A DNA stretch of 51,649 nucleotides from Clostridia bacterium (GTDB lineage Bacteria > Bacillota > Clostridia > Oscillospirales > Acutalibacteraceae). The stretch is from contig JAFQSP010000008.1 of NCBI GenBank assembly GCA_017409475.1, positions 1 through 51,649 on the forward strand, in the 5' to 3' direction. A program made the position numbers and the translations under genes. This document shows, in pieces, positions 26,789 through 50,045 of this stretch; within the stretch, counting starts at the first letter, position 1; each line of letters starts with the position of its first letter. The notes under the pieces are model-generated. The model was not told the DNA's origin and did no database searches. It saw only the letters and a program-made list of their open reading frames with translations.

Positions 26789-26822
26789 AACTCCGAGCTT
26801 AATTTAAGTTCGGAGTTTTTTA
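26789..26822 (+). terminator. Terminator after the proS unit
   Basis: 12-bp stem with one G-T pair (26789-26800 with 26806-26817), loop of 5, T-run. From 26823 to 27006 the sequence is A/T-rich; only the small palindrome TGACAAcTTGTCA at 26939-26951 stands out. Confidence 0.88.
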
Positions 26823-27006: not shown

Positions 27007-27035
27007 TTGCAAATAAAGGCTTGGTATGATATTAT
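27007..27035 (+). promoter_or_regulatory. Promoter of the S10-spc-alpha operon
   Basis: -35 TTGCAA (27007-27012), 17-bp spacer, extended -10 TGaTATTAT (-10 at 27030-27035). Predicted start near 27042. No other clear promoter was found before rpsJ. Confidence 0.8.
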
Positions 27036-27041
27036 ATTCAG

Positions 27042-27329
27042 GCACGCGTCTGAAAATATGCGTACAGATATGCGATGATGCGGGAGGTGGCCGACCTCTG
27101 AGTTGGGAAATTTCCGCGGAGTATGTCCGATTTTAAACCGGGCGATTAAAAAAACTTCACTGTTGAATTCGCTATTCCGGATTTGTTGGTCAAAAGCTAT
27201 GGTATTCCAGAGGTACTTGACCGCCTATGGACAAGTCCGGTTTTAAAACGGAAAGGGTTGAAACACCCGGAACGGTGTAAAGAAGTTTTAGAATCCTGCC
27301 CACCTATCAAATAAGGAGGCGAAATTCAA
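27042..27329 (+). promoter_or_regulatory. Long structured leader RNA of the S10 operon
   Basis: About 288 nt between the predicted transcription start and rpsJ, with no coding potential I can support. A 10-bp stem (27177-27186 with 27231-27240, one G-U pair) encloses a second stem (GGTCAA 27188-27193 with TTGACC 27217-27222) and a 23-nt loop. ACCTCTG at 27094-27100 can pair locally with GAGGT (27084-27088) or with CAGAGGT in that loop (27208-27214). A 17-nt motif recurs at 27125-27141 and 27235-27251 with two changes. It does not look like a T-box, and there is no terminator in it. Likely an autogenous ribosomal protein control element (inference). Confidence 0.6.
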
Positions 27330-27638
27330 ATGGCAAAGGAAAAAATCAGAATCAGACTGAAGAGCTACGATCACAAGCTTATCGATCAGTCAGCGGAAAA
27401 GATTGTTGAAACCGCAAAGCGCACCGGCGCAAGAGTTTCGGGACCTGTACCGCTCCCCACTGACAGAGAGATCGTTACAATTCTCCGTGCTGTCCATAAA
27501 TATAAGGATAGCCGCGAACAGTTTGAAACACGCACACACAAAAGGCTTATCGACATTCTCAGACCTTCAAACAAGACCGTTGAAGCTCTGATGAGTCTTG
27601 AGCTCCCTGCCGGCGTTGAAATCGAGATTAAGCTTTAA
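27330..27638 (+). CDS. rpsJ: Ribosomal protein S10
   Basis: Small-subunit head protein, also NusE in transcription antitermination. 102 residues, normal length, with [17 protein letters not shown] at the N terminus and the [11 protein letters not shown] loop. First gene of the S10 operon, with AAGGAGG 10 bases upstream and the structured leader before it. Confidence 0.98.
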
Positions 27639-49920: not shown

Positions 49921-49929
49921 GGTGTTTGT

Positions 49930-50045
49930 GTCGGCATCGCCCTATCTTCCCGTGGCGTCACCACCAAAGTATTTTCGGCACTGATGAGCTTAACTGCTGT
50001 GTTCGGGATGGGAACAGGTGTACCCTCATCGCCAAAGACACCGAC
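49930..50045 (-). rRNA. rrf: 5S ribosomal RNA
   Basis: On the minus strand this reads as a 116-nt 5S rRNA. The core CCCATCCCGAACACAGCAGT and AAGCTCATCAGTGCCGA are present, as is GGTGGTGACGCC. The ends pair as helix I (GTCGGTGTC with GATGCCGAC), which sets the boundaries to within one or two bases. No 16S or 23S gene is adjacent. It has its own promoter and terminator, so it is a solitary 5S gene. Confidence 0.95.

Follow-up and report, generated by a model that had tools for sequence, protein, structure and literature searches.

An S10 leader RNA of the RF03136 class with a second folded domain upstream of rpsJ in a clostridial family

The untranslated RNA that precedes rpsJ in the 51,649-nucleotide stretch of DNA analysed here (the window) is a ribosomal-protein leader of a known kind, in a lineage-specific, extended variant. 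Its 5' part is the core of Rfam class RF03136, and behind this core the leaders of the window's family carry a second folded domain (about 27146-27304 in the window) that lies beyond the public RF03136 model. We propose that the RNA is an autogenous r-protein leader of RF03136 type that acts on the translation of rpsJ and thereby controls the S10-spc operon, a reading to which we assign a probability of about 0.6. The original prediction had likewise seen an autogenous leader of the S10 superoperon, and this stands as the best reading; its accompanying views, that the RNA is of no class that could be named and that it may form a kissing interaction, do not. The leader is framed by the following features.

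27007-27035, plus strand: promoter-like site, TTGCAA-17-TATTAT with the TG of an extended -10 (consensus scan, 9/12)
27313-27319, plus strand: ribosome-binding site of rpsJ, AAGGAGG (sequence)
27330-27638, plus strand: rpsJ, encoding S10 (open reading frame list; NCBIfam match over the cut-off)

The window holds the S10-spc ribosomal-protein operon, in which the genes 3' of rpsJ encode L3, L4, L23 and, further on, S17 and L24, all above the NCBIfam cut-offs; proS lies upstream of the leader. The promoter-like site, present as predicted with TTGCAA and TATTAT plus a TG, lies about 290 nt from rpsJ, though such sites are frequent (6 in the 1.2 kb scanned vs. 3.1 +/- 1.6 in shuffles). Its -10 region is retained in three genomes of the same genus, and we infer from the sequence a transcription start near 27042. 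Between the upstream genes and the leader there is also a terminator-like hairpin (26790-26821, ACTCCGA..TCGGAGT followed by a T-run), which the pattern scan did not list.

27067-27145, plus strand: S10 leader core, Rfam RF03136 S10-Clostridia (cmscan of the whole window, 38.8 bits against a gathering cut-off of 35.1, E 1.8e-4)

The match is full length (model positions 1-81), lies upstream of rpsJ (27330) as in relatives and is single-copy in the window's genome; searched against Rfam up to E 5, the leader matched RF03136 only. The Rfam comparison proposed along with the original prediction thus placed the core in a named class and left the 3' domain outside the model. The leader used as a query found one other match in the same genome (locus L037, 1501-1534, contig C9), which falls on a ribosome-binding site and gene start, the translation of that gene reading as EF-Tu. 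Of 100 genomes sampled from the family, 83 contain RF03136 at E <= 1e-3, 76 of them above the cut-off; among the more complete genomes 68 of 75 have it. A phylum sample of 299 genomes has it in 122, with 70 above the cut-off. S10 could be placed in 86 of the 89 family loci fetched, and in these a core-like motif precedes it. Two of the 86 are the window itself, and in L087 the pattern misplaced the core, for which reason this locus is excluded from the tests below; the window (L001, L032) and L034, which is near-identical to L033, are excluded from most swap tests. The core is composed as follows.

27067-27073/27121-27127, plus strand: P0, outer stem (not clearly supported)
27074-27120, plus strand: kink-turn-like internal loop, GATGA 27074-27078 facing GA 27119-27120 (minimum free energy [MFE] helices, conservation)
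27079-27086/27111-27118, plus strand: P1 (MFE, covariation)
27091-27095/27102-27106, plus strand: P2 (MFE, covariation)
27125-27143, plus strand: P3, GTCCG 27125-27129 with CGGGC 27139-27143, loop ATTTTAAAC (Rfam alignment)

Conserved stems with compensatory changes, which had been named originally as the test of a structured leader, were found in relatives by swap tests for P1 and P2 (z -11.1 and -9.4, n = 77) and for the helix P4 described below. The whole-leader fold is only mildly better than chance (z -1.90, with 10 of 200 shuffles as good). GATGA forms the 5' strand of the internal loop in 97 of the phylum sample's 121 leaders, and P1 is followed by GAG in 117. A kink-turn, with its 3-nt bulge and tandem GA/GA between two stems, would show such letters, and the core is a candidate for one; covariation of the outer stem P0 is slight, however (z -1.9, 138 of 5000 permutations, n = 116; z -2.0, 120 of 5000, n = 30; none seen within the family), and as a general helix P0 is unsupported by the swap tests. 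P3 we read as the last hairpin of the Rfam core, its pairing register being a reading of the alignment.

The kissing pair that had been predicted between ACCTCTG (27094-27100) and CAGAGGT (27208-27214) is present as a complementarity, of a kind expected by simple arithmetic about 2.4 times by chance for a perfect 7-nt complement in 288 nt. Both 7-mers occur in the window and in the relatives G052 and G101; in G102 (same genus as the window), G064 and G089 only the second survives, the first being altered, with a 5-nt match left in G064, which retains ACCTC. Lost in three of the five other leaders checked, which come from the window's genus and two sister genera, the pair is not kept beyond the closest relatives and we reject it.

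The 3' domain of the window comprises four elements.

27151-27289, plus strand: P4, closing the 3' domain, AAAACTTC 27151-27158 with GAAGTTTT 27282-27289 (MFE, family swap tests)
27177-27244, plus strand: P5 hairpin, CCGGATTTGT..ACAAGTCCGG, with a long apical extension, then TTTT 27241-27244 (hairpin counts, relatives)
27260-27278, plus strand: P6 module, GAAACACCCGG-AACG-GTGT, possible stem ACACC 27263-27267 with GGTGT 27274-27278 (pattern counts)
27298-27304, plus strand: GCCCACC, in the family GCCCGCC (sequence, MFE, accessibility model)

P4 covaries across the family: its two strands, one to the left of the P5 hairpin and one to the left of GCCCGCC, pair at a mean of -10.05 kcal/mol when taken from the same leader vs. 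-6.36 when permuted (sd 0.26; 0 of 5000 as good, n = 74). The own pairing beats swaps with the three nearest relatives in 58 of 73 leaders (Wilcoxon p 4e-9), and at least 7 contiguous pairs form in 44 of 73, all 44 of which differ, vs. 25% in swaps. Against a z of -13.9 for P4, the control with its left strand reversed gives -3.9 and two linker pairings give -1.1 and -1.2, so that composition and relatedness account for part of the signal, not most. Judged by eye, G102 retains a helix at P4 through indels. Swap tests also point to another, variable helix in the family, located between core and P5 (z -6.9, n = 67); on our reading it is missing from the window. RNAalifold returned no consensus structure on a MAFFT alignment of the 3' domain, probably because the variable flanks are misaligned.

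The 10-bp stem (27177-27186/27231-27240) and nested 6-bp stem (27188-27193/27217-27222) predicted originally both exist in the sequence and are formed in the MFE fold, as part of P5. By a lax criterion, applied without a shuffle control, 80 of 84 family leaders have a hairpin followed by a U-run; four of these 80 hairpins are weaker than -8 kcal/mol, one of them reaching only -0.9, and L045, L048, L053 and L089 have no P5. CCGG occurs in both P5 arms in 49 of 78 leaders. Some changes among relatives are double-sided: in a MAFFT alignment of 56 leaders three of five basal pairs have changed on both sides, with 7 double-changed cells where shuffles give 2.1 (1 of 500 reaching 7), although sliding the register by -2 or -3 yields just as many such pairs, and the result of this test is modest. 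An inner-arm test gives z -12.3 on hairpins that had been selected for being hairpins. The long apex matches in 7 of 300 family genomes, from three genera, and in five genome-collection records that are apparently the same as G052, G102, G089, G101 and G064. From this distribution, and from a paired stem at the position of the P5 inner loop in the relative G180, we reject the apex as a mobile or shared element and read it as a lengthened P5. At least four leaders (L056, L059, L067, L068) have an ACCCCAG loop at the P5 apex in common. The 17-nt repeat noticed at 27125 and 27235 is real, with its two changes, and we take it for P3 and the 3' arm of P5 sharing a similar near-palindromic CCGG/UUUUAAA sequence.

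The conserved module of the 3' domain in the family is ACACCCGG..GUGU. The pattern GAAACACCCGGN{3,5}GTGT occurs in 31 of 100 family genomes, once in each and always beside a leader match, and the reversed pattern occurs in none. Because its possible stem never changes on both sides among relatives, the module is conserved as sequence; the P5-P6 linker provides no extension of P6 (z +0.7). A loose form of the pattern matches 68 of 83 family leaders and a strict form 57 of 83; in the phylum sample the counts are 11 of 119 (shuffle mean 0.8) and 6 of 119 (shuffles 0), a control that flatters the pattern, which was drawn up after several of the counted sequences had been seen. The loose form matches none of 121 rpsJ coding stretches. 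When eight loci, five of them module-bearing, were searched against Rfam up to E 5, only RF03136 was found, with two weak snoRNA matches elsewhere in the loci.

Outside the family this second domain is uncommon. Among the 122 other loci fetched for the phylum sample, with core and start placed in 121, the core lies near the rpsJ start in 110 and a further domain stands between them in 12. From GATGA to the start the short leaders span 71-148 nt where measured, and the long ones have roughly 90 nt or more of additional sequence separating core and start; a second measurement gave 15 nt from core to start in L121 and L118 and 150 in L104. In family loci, L087 left out for its misplaced core, the core motif is 155-350 nt from the S10 start. 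The 12 long leaders are the seven loci with a match in the window's order and class, four of family f89 and one of family f63. Nine match the module, L104 has it by eye (it was not in the scan), L108 has a near form by eye and L224 is without it. L224 is also a long leader from outside the window's class, and what separates its core from the ribosome-binding site is a different insert. In L177 and L222 the module sits in an extension of P2 instead. A description of the extra domain was found neither in Rfam nor in the literature searched, and its novelty holds within these limits.

This distribution bears on what the domain does. The core alone might regulate, the 3' domain being a tolerated expansion folded away by P4, and both its absence from 110 of the 122 phylum-sample loci and the very variable inner lengths of the domain are as this would have it. 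We consider it possible but on the unlikely side, given that 47 of the 84 family leaders have GAAACACCCGG exactly and 63 have GCCCGCC exactly, which is more than a spacer needs. These exact counts cover all 84 leaders (no GCCCGCC anchor is present in L043, L045, L061 and L070); in the alignment of 56 of them (A2), chosen by anchors and length, anchor conservation is partly a matter of selection. The module is probably a second protein contact. We suggest, much more tentatively and as a conjecture we would not favor, that S10 leaders have gained AC(A/G)CNCG(G/A)..GU(U)GU as a second, portable binding site at two places (the 3' domain in several lineages, the P2 apex in two others) and that it makes two-input regulators of them; if so, such leaders would sense a second protein or the state of assembly.

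We favor translational control because the core, outside the family, mostly sits against the ribosome-binding site, with 13-18 nt from its end to the start codon in 24 of the 30 loci that score best there, and because GCCC(A/G)CC has two possible partners, GGGC of P3 and the ribosome-binding site. In the window GCCCACC can pair with GGGC 27140-27143, or its CCACCT (27300-27305) with AGGAGG 27314-27319. An excess of a ribosomal protein of the same operon (L4, by precedent) would bind the core and hold P3, whose 3' strand GGGC would then be unavailable to the GCCC just upstream of the ribosome-binding site; the free CC(A/G)CC would cover AGGAGG and translation of rpsJ would fall. With the protein on rRNA, GGGC would pair with GCCC and leave the ribosome-binding site freer. 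Forcing the outer GGGC:GCCC helix gives higher predicted access to the site than forcing P3 does in 61 of 71 leaders (means 0.51 vs. 0.40; window 0.37 vs. 0.22), an effect that is small, exceeding 0.2 in only 18 of 71 and opposite in the close relative L044, and that is partly built in because the forced outer helix occupies bases that would cover the site. GGGC:GCCC is hardly testable by covariation because both vary little, and the stretch next to it (z -3.3 or -3.5) does no better than the reversed-P4 control.

Attenuation at P5 is the main rival to translational control, and one that we regard as doubtful. A bound protein would here stabilise P3, and P5 with its U-run would end transcription, while in the absence of protein the 3' side of P3 (ATTTTAAACCGG) would pair with the 3' arm of P5 (CCGGTTTTAAAA) as an antiterminator. 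The lax count of P5 and U-run in the family agrees with this, as do the 88% complementarity of the P3 and P5 arms over 16 nt in the window and the joint presence of CGGTTT in P5 and AAACCG in P3 in 54 of 78 leaders; the B. subtilis L10 leader, with its kink-turn anti-antiterminator, offers a precedent (PMC10931766). As an intrinsic terminator, however, the GC-rich stem of P5 in the window is followed by a tract of U4 only, the run being TTTTAAAA, with a d'Aubenton-type score of -20, and only 23 of 78 leaders score above 0. The terminator scan did not call P5, its loop limit of 8 excluding so long a hairpin. Sequence conservation, moreover, extends past the U-run. We rejected the antiterminator pairing on its absent covariation (own -11.25, permuted -11.25), though the sequences hardly vary. 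Control of rpsJ by a leader peptide encoded in the region is scarcely credible: an open frame does end at 27313-27315, right before the ribosome-binding site, but within the stop-free stretch the only starts are internal TTG codons, ATG and GTG being absent, and G102 carries indels in it whose lengths are not divisible by three.

In the literature searched we found no ligand named for the RF03136 leader type. Another protein of the operon, such as L24, is an unlikely alternative to L4. The site of L24 on 23S rRNA is a kink-turn (Kt-7), the core shows the GA/GA pattern of kink-turns, a 23S alignment can be read as showing a comparable GGGGAGCC / UUUGACCC loop, and L24 is encoded in the S10-spc operon of the window. 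The outer stem of the kink-turn is unsupported, however, and in sequence the core resembles a relative's rRNA no more than shuffles do (p 0.21 with the family consensus, 0.96 with the window). Mimicry of rRNA by sequence was rejected more generally, no segment reaching the 5% level against shuffles in the rRNA operon of a relative (three module forms 0.72, 0.80 and 0.14; apex 0.87); the family core matches best at an exact GTGGAGTATGT in 16S, with a score that shuffles equal about one time in five. The window has a 5S rRNA gene of its own on the minus strand (49929-50045, RF00001, 89.1 bits), and 16S rRNA was not found in its genome, an incomplete assembly.

The S10-spc operon of a family of many genera appears to be controlled by an RNA that is only partly modelled. 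The extra domain deserves a proper model and, once defined, is a concrete target for a ligand search, and the case shows how an r-leader can grow by a domain added between sensor and ribosome-binding site.

Among known systems, RF03136 shares with the window the core at 27067-27145, above its gathering cut-off and upstream of rpsJ, whereas the 81 positions of its model end at 27145 and the window's P4, P5 and module fall outside. The Firmicutes S10 r-leader was reportedly described by Yao and colleagues in 2007. According to Eckert and Weinberg (2020), the Clostridia examples, and with them the window's class, are fundamentally the same motif as this established r-leader, and the Clostridia S10 motif is not discussed further apart from Fig. 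1 (PMC7247131). The L4-bound S10 leader of E. coli likewise acts from the 5' UTR of this operon, affecting both transcription and translation (PMC10931766), whereas the window's leader matched only RF03136 in the Rfam search up to E 5. The B. subtilis L10 leader is a model of working likeness with its kink-turn, alternative helices and terminator (PMC10931766); it differs in operon and protein, and support for a termination step is weak in the window. Like the window's leader, the rpsJ motif RLC-47-1 is a structured 5' UTR of rpsJ; first found in C. difficile and described as a candidate ribosomal leader in three genera of Peptostreptococcaceae, it may overlap the extra domain of the window's family (PMC11109978).
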